Virus record (IMG/VR): IMGVR_UViG_3300020470_000111
Span: 1-32,418 of that record
Length of the DNA stretch: 32,418 bases
Strand: one strand, 5' to 3'
Origin: a virus
Part shown: piece after piece, positions 3,048-27,615 of the stretch
How positions within the stretch are numbered: position 1 is the stretch's first letter
Layout: every line of letters begins with the position of its first letter
The notes under the pieces: generated by a model
Databases searched by the model: none
What the model was told of the DNA's origin: nothing
What the model saw: only the letters and a program-made list of their open reading frames with translations
Translations under genes and position numbers: made by a program

Positions 3048-3080
3048 CTAAATAGAAATGATATAGTAGAACTATTTAGA
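3047..3080. promoter_or_regulatory. Divergent late promoter pair between gp4 and gp54
   Basis: TCTAAATA occurs on the plus strand at 3047-3054 and again on the minus strand at 3080-3073. Both differ from TATAAATA at one position. Each octamer touches the start codon of the opposite gene: the + element abuts the gp4 ATG and the - element abuts the proposed gp54 GTG. Each lies about 26 bp upstream of the gene it would serve. The symmetry supports both promoters and both start codons. Confidence 0.65.
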
Positions 3081-3905
3081 GTGCCTGTTCCAATACCAAA
3101 GAAGATATCTCAAATTCTTCCAACATTTCAAAATGTTGCTCAGACTTCTCATTACTTAGTTAATTTTGGTCTTCCGTCTAAAGGACTGAGATCTCATTTA
3201 CAAGCTAGGGGAGTTGATCATAGATTTCATATGAGTGATATTGGATTGTTGTGTAGTGCTGCTGTTTTGCCTGGATCTGCTTTTGCAACTGAAATGGTGA
3301 GAGGTAATTTTCAGGGTGTTATGGAAAGTATGCCTCATACAAGAAACTTTACTGAAATAACTTTAGAATTTTATGTTGATAATGAATATAAATCACTTAA
3401 ATTTTTAGAGCATTGGATGGAATATATTACTGCTGGATCTGGAGCAGATCCTTCAGATGATGCATATAATTTTCAGTTAAATTATCCAGAATCATATAAA
3501 TCTAATACAACAACAATTACAAAGTTTGAAAGAAATTATAGACAAAGACTCGAATATTCATTCCGTGGATTATATCCAAAATCATTAAGTATGACAAGGG
3601 TTGCTTATGCAAATTCTCAAGTATTGAAAACATCAGCAGCTTTTGCATTTGATAGGTATGTTTGTGGTTCAGATAAATCTTCGGATAGAAGAAGGGGTAC
3701 TGATAATAATAAGGTTAGTAGTAATTCTGCAGCTAATAGATTATATAATAAGACTCTTAATAACTTTGTTGAACCTTCACCAGGAAAAGTTGAATTATTA
3801 AATGCATCTCAAGAACAGATTAATACTCTTAGGAATTATGGATCAAAACTTTATCAAGATGTTAGTGGTGGTGGTACTGTTATAAGTGAGGGTAGAGTAG
3901 TTTAA
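3081..3905 (+). CDS. 54: Baseplate tail-tube initiator gp54 (GTG start)
   Basis: A 274-aa product from GTG 3081. The frame is open further upstream to an ATG at 3009, but that start lies inside gp4 on the other strand and before the late promoter, so the GTG is preferred. The protein has a tube-like fold pattern: YLVNFGLPSKGLRSHL, then SDIGLLCSAAVLPGS (the clamp segment before the beta strands), FTEITLEFYVDNEY, and YPKSLSMTRVAYANSQ near the end. gp54 sits on the gp48 cap and starts polymerisation of tube and sheath. It differs from gp48 in lacking the Gly-rich middle. The short NH2-terminal PVPIPKK segment is typical of cyanophage structural proteins. Confidence 0.78.
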   Translation: MPVPIPKKISQILPTFQNVAQTSHYLVNFGLPSKGLRSHLQARGVDHRFHMSDIGLLCSAAVLPGSAFATEMVRGNFQGVMESMPHTRNFTEITLEFYVDNEYKSLKFLEHWMEYITAGSGADPSDDAYNFQLNYPESYKSNTTTITKFERNYRQRLEYSFRGLYPKSLSMTRVAYANSQVLKTSAAFAFDRYVCGSDKSSDRRRGTDNNKVSSNSAANRLYNKTLNNFVEPSPGKVELLNASQEQINTLRNYGSKLYQDVSGGGTVISEGRVV

Positions 3906-3944: not shown

Positions 3945-4661
3945 ATGCCTTTACCAAAAATTTCGACACCTTCTTATGAGTTGGTAATTCCTTCATCTAA
4001 AAAGAAAATTAAGTATAGACCTTTTTTAGTTAAAGAAGAAAAAATACTAATTTTGGCTATGGAAAGTCAAGATAGTAAACAGATAGCAAATGCCGTTAAA
4101 GATGTAATTTCATCTTGTGTTATAACAAGAGGAATAAAAGTTGATAAATTATCTACCTTTGATATTGAATATCTATTTCTTAATATTCGTGGAAAATCTG
4201 TTGGTGAAGAAGTTGAAATTATGGTAACTTGTCCTGATGATGGTAAGACTCAAGTTCCTACTGTTATTAATCTAGATGAGATTCAAGTTGAGATTGCTAA
4301 AGATCATTCAAGAGATATTAAGTTAGATGATGAATATACAATGAGAATGAAGTATCCTTCATTGGATGAATTTATTAAAACTAATTTCTCAACAGGTGAT
4401 ATTAATGTTGATGATACTTTTAAATTGATTTCATCTTGTATTGATCAAGTTTATTCTGAAGATGAATCTTGGACATCTGCAGATTGTACTAAAAAGGAAT
4501 TGACTGAATTTGTTGAACAGTTGAATTCTAAACAATTCAAAGATGTTGAAAAGTTTTTTGAGACAATGCCCAAACTTTCTCATACTGTTAAGGTAACTAA
4601 TCCCAATACAGAAGTAGAAAATGAAATTGTATTGGAGGGATTGCAGAGTTTTTTCGTGTAA
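3945..4661 (+). CDS. 26: Baseplate hub/assembly protein gp26, probable frameshift donor
   Basis: A 238-aa protein resembling T4 gp26 (about 208 aa). It opens with PLPKISTPSYELVIPSS and has KYRPFLVKEEKILILAMES, a conserved patch of the T4 gp26-like family, then VDKLSTFDIEYLFLNIRGKS and VTCPDDG. In T4, gp26 is needed for hub assembly and may act as a chaperone rather than remain in the particle. The reading frame ends SFFV-stop. The TTT TTC codons for the two Phe form a slippery heptamer followed by a stem-loop, so a fraction of ribosomes may enter the -1 frame and make a 299-residue extended form. This resembles the G and GT proteins of other long-tailed phages. Confidence 0.85.
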   Translation: MPLPKISTPSYELVIPSSKKKIKYRPFLVKEEKILILAMESQDSKQIANAVKDVISSCVITRGIKVDKLSTFDIEYLFLNIRGKSVGEEVEIMVTCPDDGKTQVPTVINLDEIQVEIAKDHSRDIKLDDEYTMRMKYPSLDEFIKTNFSTGDINVDDTFKLISSCIDQVYSEDESWTSADCTKKELTEFVEQLNSKQFKDVEKFFETMPKLSHTVKVTNPNTEVENEIVLEGLQSFFV

Positions 4662-4691
4662 GTATGGCTCATGAAGACCTTGAGTCATACT
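4649..4691 (+). promoter_or_regulatory. Candidate programmed -1 ribosomal frameshift signal
   Basis: The heptamer T TTT TTC (4649-4655) is in the correct X XXY YYZ register for the gp26 frame. After a 5-nt spacer, AGTATGGCTCA (4661-4671) pairs over all 11 positions (one G-T) with TGAGTCATACT (4681-4691), leaving a 9-nt loop. The zero-frame stop TAA (4659-4661) lies between slip site and stem. A -1 slip continues without a stop through Arg-Val-Ser into the downstream ORF. The stem also covers that ORF's only nearby ATG (4664). Confidence 0.8.
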
Positions 4692-4843
4692 TTAAAGTAA
4701 ATTTTGCTTTGATGCAACACCATAAATATAGCTTAACAGAGTTAGAAAATATGATTCCTTGGGAAAGAGAAATATATTTAACTCTTCTTCAACAATATAT
4801 TGAAGAAGAAAATTTAAAAGCACAGCAAGCAGCAAATGCCTGA
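4664..4843 (+). CDS. Short -1-frame extension of gp26 (GT-like tail assembly chaperone segment)
   Basis: This encodes 59 residues from ATG 4664, or a C-terminal extension of gp26 if reached by frameshift at 4655. The sequence is helical and acidic: LESYFKVNFALMQHH, then SLTELENMIPWEREIYLTLL and an EEENLKAQQ tail. Its size and helical character resemble the T part of GT-type tail assembly chaperones. No clear Shine-Dalgarno precedes the ATG, and the ATG is buried in an 11-bp stem, so independent initiation looks poor. It overlaps the start of the next gene by 8 nt. In T4 naming this could be confused with gp51 by position, but I see no sequence basis for that. Confidence 0.75.
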   Translation: MAHEDLESYFKVNFALMQHHKYSLTELENMIPWEREIYLTLLQQYIEEENLKAQQAANA

Positions 4844-6347
4844 AATAGCATCACCAATAGGAAGAAGTATAAAAGCAATTAGGAGAACCTTTTCTTCTAG
4901 TTTATTTTCACCTGCTGCTACTGCACCTGCACCTGCTCAACCAGATCCTAAATTAGTACAATTAATTGTTAGAAATACTAATGCAGTAAATTCTGTTACT
5001 GTTCAATTAACTAATGTTTCTAATCAAGTTAATGTTTTAACGTCATCTTTAAATTCAATATCTCAGAGTTTAGCTTTAAATGCTCAATTAGATCAACAGA
5101 GAGCAAATGCTGAACTTAATAGACAGCAGCAATTAGCACAATTAAAACTTAGAGAAGGAAAAGAAAGTCAAATAGAGAAAAAGATGCAAGATGCATTGAT
5201 AAAACCTATTGCTGCGGTAGCTCAAAAAGCATCAAATATATTAGGAGCTTTAAGTCAATATTTTACAACTATATTATTTGGTTGGTTGGGAACCCAGAGT
5301 CTTGAGTATTTACGTGCTCTTGCATCTGGTAATCAAGAAATGTTGAAGAAAATACAGGGTACGATAGTAAATGGTTTATTAATTGCAGGTGGTTTATTCA
5401 TAGGTGTTAATGTAGCTATTACTGCATTAACATTATCTCTTAAAGGACTTGCCAAAAGACTTCTTAACTTTACTTTTAGGAAATTAATAAAAGCACCATT
5501 TGTAAGTCTGATAAACGTATTCAGAAACTTGGCAGGAGCAAGTTTACTTGGTGGTGGTATAATGGGTGGTCTCGGAAAAAATATTCGTCCTCCTGCAATA
5601 ACAAACCCAAGTCAGATGTTACCTGGAAAACAGGGATTCTTTGCTAAAGTTGGTAATTTCCTTAAAGGTGGAACGGCATATGGAATGCTTGATGCTGGTA
5701 TGGATATGATGGGAGGTAAAAATCCTATTGGTGCAATAACTGATAGTGCTGGTGGTGTATATGGATCGAGAGTAGGAACCAATATATTAGGTAAAATTTT
5801 AGGTAAGAGATTCAAATGGTTAGCTCCAATACTTGGATTTGTAGGAGGAAAACAACTAACTCAAGGAACTAGAGAGGCTTTGACTAGTAATTTGTTTAGT
5901 GGTGATGGTAATCAACAAGGTGCTCAACCAGAAATGACAGAAGCACAGAAGTTGGCATGGGCAAACAGTATTAATCCTGGTGATCAACCAATAGATACAC
6001 CTACTGAACAAAAAAAGGAAGGAAATCGTGGATTTCTTGGTTGGAGATCTTCTGTTGATTGGTTAACAGGTGGACTGACTGATTTAGATAAAAAAGGAAG
6101 TGATTTTAATCTTATTAATCCTAAGTCACAGAAAACAACTCAATTAAAAGAAGCTGATCTTAGTTTAGCAGAACCTGCACCAGAACTTGTTGCTATGGGT
6201 GGTGGAGATGGATCACAAGGAAAAGATCAATCTATTAGTTCTGGAACTGGAAGTATGGGTGGATCTGTACCTAAAATACCTTCATCTAATAATGATAATA
6301 CTTATATCTTTAATGGATTAAGAGAATATCAAATAGCACCTGCATAA
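4836..6347 (+). CDS. Tape-measure-like tail protein A (503 aa)
   Basis: The N-terminal 40 residues are Ala/Pro-rich. Residues 40-125 form a long helical, Gln/Asn/Leu-rich segment suited to a coiled coil. Residues 125-215 contain hydrophobic helices (TTILFGWLG, VNGLLIAGGLFIGVNVAITA), and a Gly-rich region follows. Near residue 396 begins GNRGFLGWRSSVDWL, a roughly 35-residue block also found almost unchanged in the next gene. Both proteins also share a GWL plus KKIQG pattern in the middle. Position directly after a frameshifted chaperone pair and before the 27-like hub gene is where tape-measure genes sit in other long-tailed phages. T4 uses gp29 (about 590 aa), which I cannot match here. The tape-measure role is therefore inferred from context and composition. 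Confidence 0.72.
   Translation: MPEIASPIGRSIKAIRRTFSSSLFSPAATAPAPAQPDPKLVQLIVRNTNAVNSVTVQLTNVSNQVNVLTSSLNSISQSLALNAQLDQQRANAELNRQQQLAQLKLREGKESQIEKKMQDALIKPIAAVAQKASNILGALSQYFTTILFGWLGTQSLEYLRALASGNQEMLKKIQGTIVNGLLIAGGLFIGVNVAITALTLSLKGLAKRLLNFTFRKLIKAPFVSLINVFRNLAGASLLGGGIMGGLGKNIRPPAITNPSQMLPGKQGFFAKVGNFLKGGTAYGMLDAGMDMMGGKNPIGAITDSAGGVYGSRVGTNILGKILGKRFKWLAPILGFVGGKQLTQGTREALTSNLFSGDGNQQGAQPEMTEAQKLAWANSINPGDQPIDTPTEQKKEGNRGFLGWRSSVDWLTGGLTDLDKKGSDFNLINPKSQKTTQLKEADLSLAEPAPELVAMGGGDGSQGKDQSISSGTGSMGGSVPKIPSSNNDNTYIFNGLREYQIAPA
6021..6125 (+). repeat. 105-nt direct repeat, copy 1
   Basis: This segment is repeated at 7613-7717 with 6 differences in 105 nt. The first 54 nt are identical, including codon third positions. 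It encodes the shared block starting GNRGFLGWRSSVDWL near the C-terminus of both tape-measure-like proteins. Identity at synonymous sites points to recent duplication or gene conversion. Confidence 0.95.
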
Positions 6348-6352
6348 GATAA

Positions 6353-7921
6353 ATGGCAACTACAGAATCGGTTAAGGGACTATTACTCAGATCTTCTATT
6401 AACCTCAAAGCTATAAACGAATCAACCAGATCTTTTTCTGAAGGAATGACGAAAGCTAGGCTTTCTACTCAGAAGATTGCTTCAAGTTTGGAGGAATCTA
6501 ATAGAATAAAGAAGAAGATGATAGCTAGTGATGATACATGGTTTAGGAAAAGGAGAAATGCTGTAAAGAGAAAAGAAAATGAAGATCTTATGGAGGCTGG
6601 TAGTATAGGTGGTGCAGTAAAGAGAACAGGAAAGGCACTTGCAGATAGTACCAAAGGATTCTTGGGTAGAATTATGGATTTTGTTGGTGTTATTATGGTT
6701 GGGTGGTTAGCAAGTAATCTACCAACTATTATTAAAGGTGCTCAAGAATTGATGAAGAAAATACAGGGTGTTGTTGATATAACTACTGGTTGGTTCAATT
6801 TTGTTGTTGGTATATTTTCGGGATTGGGTGCTAATCTAGAACAGCAGCAAGATTCTGTCACTAATAGTAACCTTACATTACAGAAAGAATCTGGAGCAGT
6901 TGAAAAGGAACTTAATAATGTTCGTCGTGGAGTTAATATAATGGAAATGGAGATACTGGATGGTTTTAACCAATATAATGCTGCTGTTGATGAAGAAAAT
7001 AAAAAAAGAGGAAAGAAAGATGAAAATAAAGATGATGGTGCAGAAGGACAACAAAATCAATGGTGGGATTTTCTTGATTTGTTCCCAAATAAAGAAAAGG
7101 AACAAGAGGTTGAAACAGATCAAGAATCTGATGAAAATCAAGTAGAATCTGAACAGGAATCTGATAGTGTTCAGGTAGATTCAGATAAAGATAAAGTTGC
7201 TAATCTTAAAACACAACAAAATAATAAGGTTGAAAAGGTTGATACTGATAGAGATTCGGAATCAGAAGAGTCTGAAATTTTTAAAGATGAGGGTGATGGA
7301 GAACCTCTTGATATGTTTAAGGATGGTGGTATTGTAGAAGGAAAACCTCATTCACAAGGTGGAGAAGATATTAATGTTGAAGGTGGTGAAGCTGTTATAC
7401 CTAAGAAGAGTGTTGACAAATTAGGACCTGAATTTATTACTAAAATGATTCAAGGTAATGTTGACACTACGAGTGGTAAATTACAGGAAGCAGGAAGTTT
7501 AATGAAAAAACTTGTTGCAGAACAGTCAGAACAGATGAAAGGTGTTGATGGAATATTTGATGATATGCAGGGAAGTATTGATAAATTGAAAAAGAAAAAG
7601 AAAGAGGATAAAGGAAATCGTGGATTTCTTGGTTGGAGATCTTCTGTTGATTGGTTAACAGGTGGATTAACTGACTTAGATAAAAAAGGAAATGAATTTA
7701 ATCTTATTAACCCTAAGAACAAAAAGGAGAAAATAGAAAAATTAAAAACTCCAAGAAAAGGGTCGAAGGTAATTATGTTAAATAATGAGAGTAGCAATTC
7801 TTCTCCTAGTGGTGGACAACCATCACTCAGTAAACCAAGTGGTGGTGTTAGAAGATTATCTGGCGATACTGGTTCATTTTATAGAAAGATTGCTTCAGCA
7901 TCAATATACGCATATACTTAA
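6353..7921 (+). CDS. Tape-measure-like tail protein B (522 aa), paralogue of the preceding gene
   Basis: The N-terminal 110 residues are helical and basic. Hydrophobic helices follow (MDFVGVIMVGWLA near residue 107, then WFNFVVGIFSGLG near 145). Residues 160-320 are charged and highly acidic, with many Glu-Ser-Asp repeats. Near residues 325-360 is GGIVEGKPHSQGGEDINV followed by GGEAVIPKKSV, which closely resembles the C-terminal GG...GGE.VI pattern common in phage tape-measure proteins. The shared GNRGFLGW block follows near 421. The gene starts 5 nt after the previous stop. Together these suggest that two tape-measure-type subunits are encoded in tandem. Which one sets tail length, or whether both do, cannot be read from sequence. 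Confidence 0.72.
   Translation: MATTESVKGLLLRSSINLKAINESTRSFSEGMTKARLSTQKIASSLEESNRIKKKMIASDDTWFRKRRNAVKRKENEDLMEAGSIGGAVKRTGKALADSTKGFLGRIMDFVGVIMVGWLASNLPTIIKGAQELMKKIQGVVDITTGWFNFVVGIFSGLGANLEQQQDSVTNSNLTLQKESGAVEKELNNVRRGVNIMEMEILDGFNQYNAAVDEENKKRGKKDENKDDGAEGQQNQWWDFLDLFPNKEKEQEVETDQESDENQVESEQESDSVQVDSDKDKVANLKTQQNNKVEKVDTDRDSESEESEIFKDEGDGEPLDMFKDGGIVEGKPHSQGGEDINVEGGEAVIPKKSVDKLGPEFITKMIQGNVDTTSGKLQEAGSLMKKLVAEQSEQMKGVDGIFDDMQGSIDKLKKKKKEDKGNRGFLGWRSSVDWLTGGLTDLDKKGNEFNLINPKNKKEKIEKLKTPRKGSKVIMLNNESSNSSPSGGQPSLSKPSGGVRRLSGDTGSFYRKIASASIYAYT
7613..7717 (+). repeat. 105-nt direct repeat, copy 2
   Basis: Second copy of the segment at 6021-6125, in the same reading frame and at an equivalent place in the paralogous gene. 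All 6 differences fall in the second half. Confidence 0.95.
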
Positions 7922-24477: not shown

Positions 24478-24810
24478 ATGAAGATTGAAGCAGGTAAGTT
24501 TTGTCCTTTAATTGGTAAGGATTGTATACAATTACAATGTTCTTGGTTCACTCAGGTTCGTGGAGTGAATCCACAAACAGGAGAAGAAGTTGATGATTGG
24601 GGTTGTGCTGTTACTTGGTTGCCATTAATGATAATTGAAAATTCAAATCAACAAAGACAAACTGGTGCTGCTATTGAATCTTTTAGAAATGAAACTGTGA
24701 AATCAACTATGAAAGCACAAGAAATATATCAAAGAGAATTAGAATTAAAAGCTCAAGAAAGATTACTAAAATCTAGACAAATACAAAATGTAACGGAGAC
24801 AGAAGAATGA
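24478..24810 (+). CDS. Four-cysteine protein of unknown function (110 aa)
   Basis: The N-terminal half has C9, C16, C21 and C43 in FCPLIGKDCIQLQCSWF and DDWGCAVTWLP, a CX6CX4CX21C arrangement that could bind an Fe-S cluster or zinc. Residues 60-110 form a charged helix (MKAQEIYQRELELKAQERLL) suited to a coiled coil. I do not recognise a function. It lies between the fibre and its chaperone-like gene and overlaps that gene by 4 nt (ATGA), so the three may work together in fibre assembly. The upstream sigma70-like promoter could separate its expression from the late fibre gene. Confidence 0.75.
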   Translation: MKIEAGKFCPLIGKDCIQLQCSWFTQVRGVNPQTGEEVDDWGCAVTWLPLMIIENSNQQRQTGAAIESFRNETVKSTMKAQEIYQRELELKAQERLLKSRQIQNVTETEE

Positions 24811-25316
24811 AATTAACAGTTGTTCCACCAGATAAAACTATAGTCATTGACGGTGTTTCAGTACATCCTTGTACTCATGTTGACCTTTCATGGATTCCAT
24901 CAGATGTTCACGGAATGTGTTTTGATACTACTACAGGAAAAGGTTTTATTGAATATGAAGAAGATGCTGTAGATGAAAATGGAGATAAAAAATGGGGTGA
25001 GAATATTACTGAAATAGGTATTTGGCAACAAGCAGTAACAGATCATGCGAATGAACAAACCCTTGCAGCTGCTGCATATGAAGCAGCAAGAAATCATTTA
25101 CAGGAAGTAAAGGATTATAGAAATTGGTTGCTTGCTGTTAGTGATTGGACTCAAGGTAATGATTCTCCATTAAGTTCTAGTAAGAAAGCAGAATATGTAA
25201 CCTATAGACAATCATTAAGAGATCTTCCAGCAACCATAGCAGCAGATGATAATTTAACTGCAAAAGCATTAGCAGATGATCACTCACATTCTTCTTGGCC
25301 GACAAAACCTTCATAA
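24807..25316 (+). CDS. Tail fibre assembly chaperone-like protein 2 (169 aa)
   Basis: The C-terminus has VKDYRNWLLAVSDWTQG, YRQSLRDLP and SSWPTKP, nearly the same pattern as the 201-aa protein at 19869. The N-terminal part is different and beta-rich (TIVIDGVSVHPCTHVDLSWI, GMCFDTTTGKGFIEYEED), a layout common in phage tail assembly chaperones with an N-terminal variable domain. A helix (DHANEQTLAAAAYEAARNHL) joins the two halves. The variable N-terminus may recognise the particular fibre. The gene overlaps the four-cysteine gene by 4 nt. Confidence 0.7.
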   Translation: MKLTVVPPDKTIVIDGVSVHPCTHVDLSWIPSDVHGMCFDTTTGKGFIEYEEDAVDENGDKKWGENITEIGIWQQAVTDHANEQTLAAAAYEAARNHLQEVKDYRNWLLAVSDWTQGNDSPLSSSKKAEYVTYRQSLRDLPATIAADDNLTAKALADDHSHSSWPTKPS

Positions 25317-25351: not shown

Positions 25352-27091
25352 ATGAATATTATTGGTATACACGGTTCCTTAGATGTTGCTGGTGCAGGTG
25401 GTTGGGAAAATAAAGGTACATATGAAGATACAGTGCATGATGCTGGATGCACTTTATTTGTAGATGGAAAACATATTAGAAGTGTTGATGAAGAACGAGT
25501 ATCTAGATTAAAACACGACGGAAGAATGCCATTAAAGGCAATAGATTATTGTCTTGGAGATCTTACTAGAGAAGATGTTGATGTAGTATGTTTTGCACCT
25601 ACGGGTGTAGAAGATTGCAATTTTCAAATGATTAATAAAATTGCATCTCAAAAATTTAAAAGTCTTTTTCCCAATGCTAAATTATGGTTTGTTGGTCATC
25701 ATCTATGTCACGCTGCCTCTTCTGTTTTTACTTCTCCTTTTAATAGTGGTAGTTTTTTAACATTAGATGGAATGGGAAGTTCTATGTGGAACTTTAATTT
25801 AGCCAATACACCTGAAGGTGAACATAATAGTATTGGATATTTTGATAAAAAGAAAAGAATATTCAGATTTTTTAGGATGCCATCATGGGGTTCGTTTTCA
25901 GGAACTAATGTTTTTGGTCAGTTTTATGGAGCTATAGCACTTCATATACAAGACGATATTTACAGTGATGAACCAGAAGGAGATCGTAAAAAAAGATTTG
26001 AGGATTTTTTGAATTGTGAAGGTAAGGTAATGGGATTGTCTGCCTATGGTAAAGATAACAAATATGATTTTCCTCAGTATTGTACAGAAAATACTAGACC
26101 TTATGCAGCATCTCCTTTAGATGCTTTAGATGCATTTCAAATTGATAGGTATGAAATGGGTCTTCCTTATATAAATTTTCATCCTACTGGTGGAGTTGTT
26201 GAAAATATGTTGAAAATGAAAATTTCTCCAGCAGATAAGGCTTTCTTTGTACAAAAGTATTATGAAGAGGCTCTTTTATATCTAATTAAAGAACTTAGAG
26301 ATGATTATCTTACGGATGATGTGTGTTTTGCTGGTGGTTGTTTTTTAAATATTACTGCTAATGATAAGTTAAGACCTTTATTCAAGAATATACATATTCC
26401 ACCCAATACTAATGATTCAGGTATTCATTTTGGAGCAGCAGCTTGGGCATCATATAGACTTAAATATGAGATTGAAATACCACACAATATTGCTCTTTTA
26501 GGTAAATCTTATAATGATAAAGAGATTGAAAAGGCAATAGGATTTAATGATTTGAAAAATATAGGAGAAATTAAATATATTAAGTATAAAGATTTTGATG
26601 AACTATGTGAAGTAGTTGCTAAGTATCTTGAGGATGATAAGATTATTGGATGGTTTCAAGGTAGATCTGAAGCTGGTCCTCGTGCTCTTGGATCTAGATC
26701 TCTTTTAATGAGTCCTCATAAAGAAGAAAATAAGGATATAATGAATAAGAGAGTTAAGCATAGAGAGTATTGGAGACCTTTTGCTGGTATAACTTTAGAG
26801 GGAAGTGGATATGAATCTTCTCCATACATGCTTTTTAATCATAAAGTAATAAGTGATGATATTCCTGCTATTACTCATGTAGATGGTAGTTGTAGAATGC
26901 AAACAGTTGATGATGAATTGAATCCTAAGATGTGTTCTTTGCTTCGTAAATTAAAGACTCCAATATTATTAAATACATCGTTTAATGACAATGGTGAACC
27001 TATAGTAGAAACTCCAGAAGATGCTATGAATGCATTTAAAAAGATGGATATAGATTATCTTGTTATTGGAAATTATATAATATCTAAATGA
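25352..27091 (+). CDS. NodU/CmcH/TobZ-family O-carbamoyltransferase
   Basis: A 579-aa protein, full length for the family. The Kae1-like domain shows VDEERVSRLKHDGRMP, GHHLCHAASS (H116, H117, H120), LTLDGMGSS (D139) and NDSGIHFGAAAWA (D355), corresponding to the metal and nucleotide site of TobZ-type enzymes. The C-terminal YrdC-like part has GWFQGRSEAGPRALGSRS, REYWRPFAG and LLNTSFNDNGEPIVETP. Such enzymes make carbamoyl-AMP from carbamoyl phosphate and ATP and transfer the carbamoyl group to a hydroxyl, usually on a sugar or antibiotic. It overlaps the 2OG oxygenase gene by 4 nt. The substrate is unknown: phage or host glycan, or a hydroxylated fibre residue, are possible. Confidence 0.9.
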   Translation: MNIIGIHGSLDVAGAGGWENKGTYEDTVHDAGCTLFVDGKHIRSVDEERVSRLKHDGRMPLKAIDYCLGDLTREDVDVVCFAPTGVEDCNFQMINKIASQKFKSLFPNAKLWFVGHHLCHAASSVFTSPFNSGSFLTLDGMGSSMWNFNLANTPEGEHNSIGYFDKKKRIFRFFRMPSWGSFSGTNVFGQFYGAIALHIQDDIYSDEPEGDRKKRFEDFLNCEGKVMGLSAYGKDNKYDFPQYCTENTRPYAASPLDALDAFQIDRYEMGLPYINFHPTGGVVENMLKMKISPADKAFFVQKYYEEALLYLIKELRDDYLTDDVCFAGGCFLNITANDKLRPLFKNIHIPPNTNDSGIHFGAAAWASYRLKYEIEIPHNIALLGKSYNDKEIEKAIGFNDLKNIGEIKYIKYKDFDELCEVVAKYLEDDKIIGWFQGRSEAGPRALGSRSLLMSPHKEENKDIMNKRVKHREYWRPFAGITLEGSGYESSPYMLFNHKVISDDIPAITHVDGSCRMQTVDDELNPKMCSLLRKLKTPILLNTSFNDNGEPIVETPEDAMNAFKKMDIDYLVIGNYIISK

Positions 27092-27615
27092 TTGATATTG
27101 GTGTAGAGAATGTTAATAGTTCTGTAGGTATTTTTTATACTAATTTGCAAAATTATACTTATTTGAAGACGGATGTTTTAAACCATAGAAAAAAATATCC
27201 AGAAACTAATGAGACTAATGTAAAGTCATCATGGACAAGTTCATATTATACACATCAAGAAACTGATAAATTTAATCCATTAATTGAAGAGGTGTGCAGT
27301 GTCTGTGAATTTATATCTTGTTCTTATTATAAGTTAAATTGTTCGTATCAACCTATTAATATGTGGGCAATGATATATGAAGAAGGTGATTTTGCTATTA
27401 AGCATCATCATTTTCCTACTAGTGCATTTTCTTGTTGCTATTATATTGATGTTGAGGATGATTGCTCACCGATTATATTTGAAGATGAAACTAGCATCAC
27501 ACCAGAAAATGGATTGCTTTTAGTTTGGCCATCAATTTTATTTCATGAGATTCCACCCACTAAAGGAAAGAGAATGTGTATCTCTATGAATATTGACAAA
27601 ATCCTTAGATTGTAG
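27088..27615 (+). CDS. 2-oxoglutarate/Fe(II)-dependent oxygenase
   Basis: A 175-aa protein with the double-stranded beta-helix pattern common in cyanophage oxygenases. HHH at 106-108 followed by FPTSAFSCCYYIDVED holds the first iron ligands (probably H106 or H108 with a nearby partner). FEDE and NGLLLVWPSILFHEIPP follow, with H153 as distal ligand, then R162 in KGKRMCISMN as the 2-oxoglutarate contact. It resembles prolyl/aspartyl hydroxylase-type families in phages. It is translationally coupled to the carbamoyltransferase (ATGA overlap). The substrate is unknown; proteins, including the collagen-like fibres, are one option. Eight cysteines in 175 residues is unusual. Confidence 0.8.
   Translation: MIDIGVENVNSSVGIFYTNLQNYTYLKTDVLNHRKKYPETNETNVKSSWTSSYYTHQETDKFNPLIEEVCSVCEFISCSYYKLNCSYQPINMWAMIYEEGDFAIKHHHFPTSAFSCCYYIDVEDDCSPIIFEDETSITPENGLLLVWPSILFHEIPPTKGKRMCISMNIDKILRL

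Follow-up and report, generated by a model that had tools for sequence, protein, structure and literature searches.

Short and long tail assembly chaperone forms from a T4-type gp26 locus, very probably through programmed -1 ribosomal frameshifting

The locus described here raises the question of whether two adjoining phage open reading frames (ORFs), gp26 and a shorter ORF in the -1 frame, are two genes or one gene read in two ways. The window, which is the whole stretch of DNA analyzed, is a complete IMG/VR virus record of 32,418 nt. Gp26 closes with ...GGA TTG CAG AGT TTT TTC GTG TAA, and the -1 reading from the slip site gives TTT TTT CGT GTA AGT ATG GCT ..., continuing to 62 sense codons (4655-4840) and a TGA (4841-4843). 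An earlier preliminary description of this DNA gave the -1 frame as open for 63 further codons to 4843; the end point and the 299-residue total stand, and the sixty-third codon is the stop. A short form (238 aa) and a C-terminally extended form (conceptually 299 aa) can be read from this one locus. The locus very probably encodes a two-form tail assembly chaperone (TAC) by programmed -1 ribosomal frameshifting, a pairing already proposed in the preliminary description and now borne out in several ways. The direct basis is the anatomy of the junction, the conservation of heptamer and stem, covariation, relatives in which the second ORF lacks a start, homology between the fusion and T4 gp51, and structural likeness of gp26 to known TACs. 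The features are collected in Table 1.

Table 1. Features of the gp26 junction and its surroundings in the window
Feature	Coordinates	Strand	Evidence
Tail tube protein, upstream context	3075..3905	+	phrog_45 tail tube, E 3.3e-36
gp26, short TAC form (TAC-N), 238 aa, zero frame	3945..4661	+	PF12322, phrog_150, structural match to HK97 2ob9
Internal Shine-Dalgarno (SD)-like GGAGGG, putative stimulator	4634..4639	+	9-10 nt 5' of heptamer; anti-SD energy, codon bias
Slippery heptamer T TTT TTC; zero-frame TTT TTC would re-pair as TTT TTT	4649..4655	+	Invariance in relatives
-1 extension (TAC-C domain; "gp51" in cyanophages), 62 codons + TGA; fused TAC-NC 299 aa	4655..4843	+	phrog_634, C-terminal part of phrog_150, T4 gp51 alignment
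Zero-frame stop TAA of gp26	4659..4661	+	Sequence, ORF call
5' arm of putative 3' stimulatory stem, containing ATG 4664-4666	4660..4671	+	Folding; 95% pairing and 11 compensatory cells in the consensus helix
ATG taken as gp51 start in cyanophage annotation; most likely a Met codon within the fusion	4664..4666	+	Absent in several relatives, weak SD
3' arm of putative stimulatory stem	4681..4692	+	Folding, covariation
Next ORF (503 aa), an unproven candidate for the tape measure or a related tail protein	4836..6347	+	Position only

Profile matches cover both parts of the locus and place it in the T4-type gp26/gp51 family. Gp26 matches PF12322 (T4_baseplate, E 1.7e-75) and phrog_150 (E 1.3e-82), and the -1 ORF matches phrog_634, "baseplate hub assembly catalyst" (E 7.6e-28). 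Because the -1 ORF also matches the C-terminal end of the phrog_150 model (239-278 of 282), this pattern suggests that both parts exist as one protein in some phages. T4 gp51 (249 aa) covers positions 13-280 of the 282 in phrog_150, and its first 201 residues match PF12322; T4 gp26 covers phrog_150 positions 14-235. The conceptual fusion, in the stretch FFRVSMAHEDLESYFKVNFAL, aligns with T4 gp51 straight across the junction (E 6e-7). From these alignments, T4 gp26 and gp51 look like short and long chaperone forms made from two genes, gp26 resembling the short form and gp51, a single ORF, resembling the whole fused form. The difference is that T4 genes 26 and 51 are separate and lie on opposite strands, and that gene 26 lacks a slippery site, the same Phe pair being encoded by the non-slippery TTC TTT. 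In cyanophages the gene that forms the second ORF of the window goes by the name gp51, "baseplate hub assembly catalyst"; together the two ORFs are the counterpart of T4 gp26 plus T4 gp51. Cyanophage gp51 was described by Sullivan et al. (2010; PMC3037559) as lacking ~200 residues that stand at the start of the T4 protein.

Structure comparison gives further support. For an AF2 model of gp26 (pLDDT 85), the best structural match after realignment of Foldseek candidates by VIA-align is the HK97 tail assembly chaperone 2ob9_A (Z 7.5 over 84 residues). The next matches are 3fgx and 3klu (Z 7.2 and 6.8), and the following row drops to 4.5; 3fgx and 3klu (YqbN) belong with HK97 gp13 among the phage tail assembly chaperones. 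Foldseek of the gp26 model against the PDB itself returned no significant match, with 2ob9 chains at E 2-3 only, and a PDB sequence search with the gp26 profile returned no match. The modeled fold corresponds to the N-domain of known TACs with middling Z scores, which is support rather than proof. The -1 domain is predicted to be helical (pLDDT 79), and the first of these helices would run on from the final helix of gp26.

The slip site itself fits X XXY YYZ in the zero-frame register and lies just ahead of the gp26 stop. Its register had been given correctly in the preliminary description, and it proved to be the only in-frame TTTTTTC among the 16 plus-strand ORFs checked. Other in-frame T6 runs comprise one T TTT TTA in gp26 at 4022 and three T TTT TTN in the ORF at 25352-27091. 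The decisive argument against chance occurrence of the heptamer is its conservation in relatives. The junction comparison that had been proposed at the outset was run on 152 distinct gp26/second-ORF junctions taken from viral contigs and phage records, 145 of which have a T6 run in register: T TTT TTC in 140, T TTT TTT in 3 (phiM12, pf16, and Melnitz), T TTT TTG in 1 (Rhizobium phage RHph_I1_9), and T TTT TTA in 1 (Pseudoalteromonas phage XG4). Among 84 representatives of the window's clade, heptamer entropy is zero at all seven positions. The heptamer recurs in distant T4-type lineages, most of which keep T TTT TTC/T/G/A with the last base free. The codon ahead of the slip pair varies (AGT, AAT, GCT, TCT, GAT, CGT) and always ends in T. 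Counted against frameshifting at such a site are E. coli tests in which U UUU UUA and U UUU UUU were far less shift-prone than A AAA AAG (PMC5009743).

T6 is missing from seven junctions: three belong to near-T4 contigs, two to distant phages, and two to contigs in which the end of gp26 is broken. In the distant phages, Vibrio phage D533 and Pseudomonas phage Cygsa01, the same gene pair is present with a slip region of CTT TTC or ATT TTC; the -1 frame is still open in both, and therefore the shorter slip site may be in use. The two broken contigs were not counted as exceptions to the heptamer, the gp26 frame appearing disrupted upstream in both: in contig L115 the gp26 stop lies 142 nt ahead of the second ORF, which is in another relative frame, and in contig L117 the normal gp26 end is missing.

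Conservation of a heptamer within a coding region could in principle be a by-product of protein conservation, with Phe-Phe under selection and TTT TTC its spelling by chance, and T4 gp26, while lacking a slippery site, does keep the Phe pair. Codon choice refutes this explanation and leaves it a vanishingly small probability. Among 103 representatives less than 90% identical, the slip codons are TTT in 103/103 and TTC in 98/101, and their entropies of 0 and 0.19 are the lowest of the 27 conserved gp26 columns; these counts are not corrected for phylogeny, and the other Phe columns, which serve as the within-gene control, share the same phylogeny. The other invariant Phe columns (27, 78, and 204) have entropies of 0.91-1.0, reflecting codon mixtures of ~50:50 to 67:33. 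Moreover, the last slip codon encodes Leu (TTG, TTA) in some distant relatives, which alter the residue yet retain the U6 run, and T4 keeps the residues with TTC TTT.

A second element, absent from the preliminary description, is the SD-like GGAGGG upstream of the heptamer. Its mean anti-SD duplex energy is about -8 kcal/mol versus +0.5 in the background, and 92% of the 84 representatives reach -5 or lower versus 3% of background. The Glu codon within the site is GAG rather than GAA by 122:12, compared with 1107:2299 elsewhere in gp26. GGAGGG lies ~24 nt from ATG 4664, too distant to be a ribosome binding site for that ATG. According to a review, internal SD sequences 9-14 nt away stimulate -1 shifting (PMC5009743). 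Position and conservation suggest that the SD-like site would likewise stimulate slipping at this locus.

The third element is a hairpin of 12 bp with a 9-nt loop, beginning after a 4-nt spacer (ViennaRNA). It is the hairpin reported earlier as an 11-bp stem with the same loop and a 5-nt spacer, a count from which the basal A-U pair had been omitted. The gp26 stop, formerly placed between slip site and stem, does follow the slip site and overlaps the first two paired bases, and the 5' arm does cover the ATG of the second ORF, as had been stated. The folded 62-nt stretch has an energy of -17.4 kcal/mol (z = -4.0), matched by 0/200 shuffles. Over the 103 representatives, folding energy averages -12.9 kcal/mol for the 48 nt that follow the heptamer, and other gp26 windows mostly fall between -4 and -7. 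Across a ten-pair helix in 45 sequences from the window's clade, standard pairs make up 95.1% of the cells versus a shuffle mean of 91.2 (0/500 shuffles), and sliding the partner by 1-3 columns, as a control, reduces pairing to 21-47%. Eleven cells are compensatory, all in one pair (U-A/G-C/A-U), where the synonymous wobble base of an Ala/Ser codon tracks a replacement in the partner codon (GCT/GAG, GCA/GTG, TCG/GCG). The stem is conserved, with compensatory changes, and its covariation is real but narrow, because it is limited to one pair. Hairpins with quite unlike sequences occupy this site in S-PM2 and ME01. Weighing against frameshifting, some distant relatives (CC2, RHph_I1_9, and LPCS28) have a predicted stem that is weak or shifted in position. 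An Rfam search of 4500-4900 gave sub-threshold chance matches only and no known frameshift family. Separately, a second, smaller, clade-wide energy dip (mean -8.7 kcal/mol) lies ~96-156 nt after the heptamer (~4752-4812 in the window), inside the -1 ORF.

Both flanking elements bear on transcriptional slippage, in which RNA polymerase would add one U to some transcripts at the T6 run and ordinary translation would then yield the fusion. The site is a homopolymer run, and a one-base insertion would change the frame just as a -1 shift does. However, the bacterial cases cited in PMC5009743 use runs of nine A or T, the run is never longer than T6C in the window's clade, and two distant relatives have only four T. 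Nor does slippage by RNA polymerase account for a conserved downstream RNA hairpin and an SD-like site conserved at ribosomal spacing. Transcriptional slippage is therefore highly improbable here, and slippage by the ribosome is preferred.

A more conventional reading is the one in GenBank, where gp26 and gp51 are two separate genes and gp51 would be translated from ATG 4664 by termination-reinitiation or translational coupling. In S-PM2 and P-SSM4 the -1 ORF is annotated as gp51 with a start just past the gp26 stop, and it has its own CDS also in phiM12 and others. In the window the ATG comes two bases past the stop, and 127/145 junctions have an ATG at that codon. Against two genes, at 9 junctions the first 12 codons of the -1 frame include no ATG, GTG, or TTG, and in Aeromonas phage CC2 the earliest start codon is at index 33 of the -1 reading, well within the conserved domain. 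The second ORF has no usable start codon in several relatives, and therefore only frameshifting explains its translation there. ATG 4664 itself is enclosed by the stem, and SD complementarity at the spacing expected of a start is weak (mean -1.9 versus -0.6 kcal/mol for the control). Separate initiation would also leave unexplained both the invariant heptamer and the alignment of residues between slip site and ATG across relatives (FFRVSMAHEDL, FFRISLFHNTL, FFRLVLLHTSL, FFRITLVNHTI), and it does not fit with T4 gp51 being the fused form. Past the stem, variation in the second ORF peaks at -1 third positions (0.92 versus 0.40 and 0.12). Taken together, these observations make two independently translated genes very unlikely, although some extra free gp51 may come from ATG 4664. 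A viral-contig search with T4 gp26 yielded only six loci, a number insufficient for a broad control with split genes.

Frameshifting at this locus can be pictured as follows. Most ribosomes would read gp26 to the TAA and release the short form, TAC-N. As a ribosome reaches the heptamer, the anti-SD of its 16S rRNA would pair with GGAGGG behind it and the hairpin would resist in front, causing a pause while two Phe-tRNAs sit on T TTT TTC. Some of the time the two tRNAs would slip back together to TTT TTT, which would take the ribosome past the stop and add 62 residues (TAC-C) to give TAC-NC. If lambda G/GT is a guide, the short form would act in many copies as a coat on the tape measure protein, and the long form, present in smaller number, would bring in tail tube subunits through its C domain. 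We infer the translational nature of the slippage, its tRNA-level steps, stimulation by the SD-like site and stem, its efficiency, and the role in tail assembly.

The resemblance to lambda gpG/gpGT is that a low-level -1 shift near the end of the first ORF gives a short and a long chaperone; the difference is that here U6C is accompanied by an SD-like site and a hairpin, in a T4-type phage. E. coli dnaX shares the upstream internal SD, an X XXY YYZ heptamer, and a downstream stem loop (PMC5009743), but its heptamer is A AAA AAG rather than U UUU UUC, its shift shortens the protein rather than lengthening it, and the genes are unrelated.

The 2022 work of Vladimirov and colleagues reportedly found that several T4-like groups keep frameshifting and that T4 uses genes 26 and 51. 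A 2016 review still gave T4 as an exception. In passages of two later papers, Vladimirov, Gautam, and Davidson (Virology 2022, 566:9-15) are credited with identifying T4-like chaperone genes and frameshift signals (PRFect, PMC10885494) and are cited for the poly-T frameshift signals that T4-like phages carry in their TAC-N genes (the Adele paper, PMC12846349). The preliminary description, which knew of no such frameshift for T4-type gp26, was on this evidence out of date. As those passages present it, the earlier system has the same genes, with gp26 as short form, a gp51-type C domain, and a poly-T slip signal, and nothing basic was found to set the present locus apart from it. The main claim of a frameshifted T4-type TAC is already known, and the window is a well-supported further case. 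The SD-like element, the covarying hairpin, and the relatives with a start-less gp51 may add detail. A literature search found nothing specific linking cyanophages or SD elements to TAC frameshifting. We see a roughly even prospect that, in marine cyanobacterial T4-type phages and their relatives, a dnaX-like three-part cassette (SD at 9-10 nt, U UUU UUC, and a covarying hairpin containing the supposed gp51 start) sets the ratio of short to long form, with the T4 lineage using two genes, and that the SD-like element and hairpin are undescribed for this gene pair. Three sequence elements may in this way set the chaperone ratio in an abundant marine phage group; T4, with a separate gene for each form, stands in clear contrast.

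For annotation, the "gp51, baseplate hub assembly catalyst" of cyanophages and their relatives is most likely the C-terminal part of a frameshift product and not a free protein. On this reading it is mis-annotated or missed in the phage records examined, none of which annotates a joined gp26-gp51 product. The -1 chaperone domain is present yet unannotated in Aeromonas phage CC2, Cronobacter phage LPCS28, ACG-2014e, ACG-2014d, and S-CAM1.

The locus sits between the tail tube gene and two ORFs (4836-6347 and 6353-7921) for which a tape measure role is plausible. Neither ORF matches PHROG or Pfam, and no tape measure gene was found by homology in the window; in Sinorhizobium phage phiM12, an ORF two genes downstream is annotated as tape-measure-like. 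The two ORFs share a 38-residue block (GNRGFLGWRSSVDWLTGGLTDLDKKG..., 89% identical) and a weaker hydrophobic segment, and they are perhaps a duplicated or split tape-measure-like gene. Elsewhere in the window, at 24478-25316, a matchless 110-aa ORF overlaps a tail-fibre-assembly-like ORF (phrog_4912) by 4 nt (ATGA); no slippery site was seen at this junction, which looks like an ordinary gene overlap. After the tail fibre region come genes for a Nol-like carbamoyltransferase (25352-27091) and a 2OG-Fe(II) oxygenase (27088-27615).
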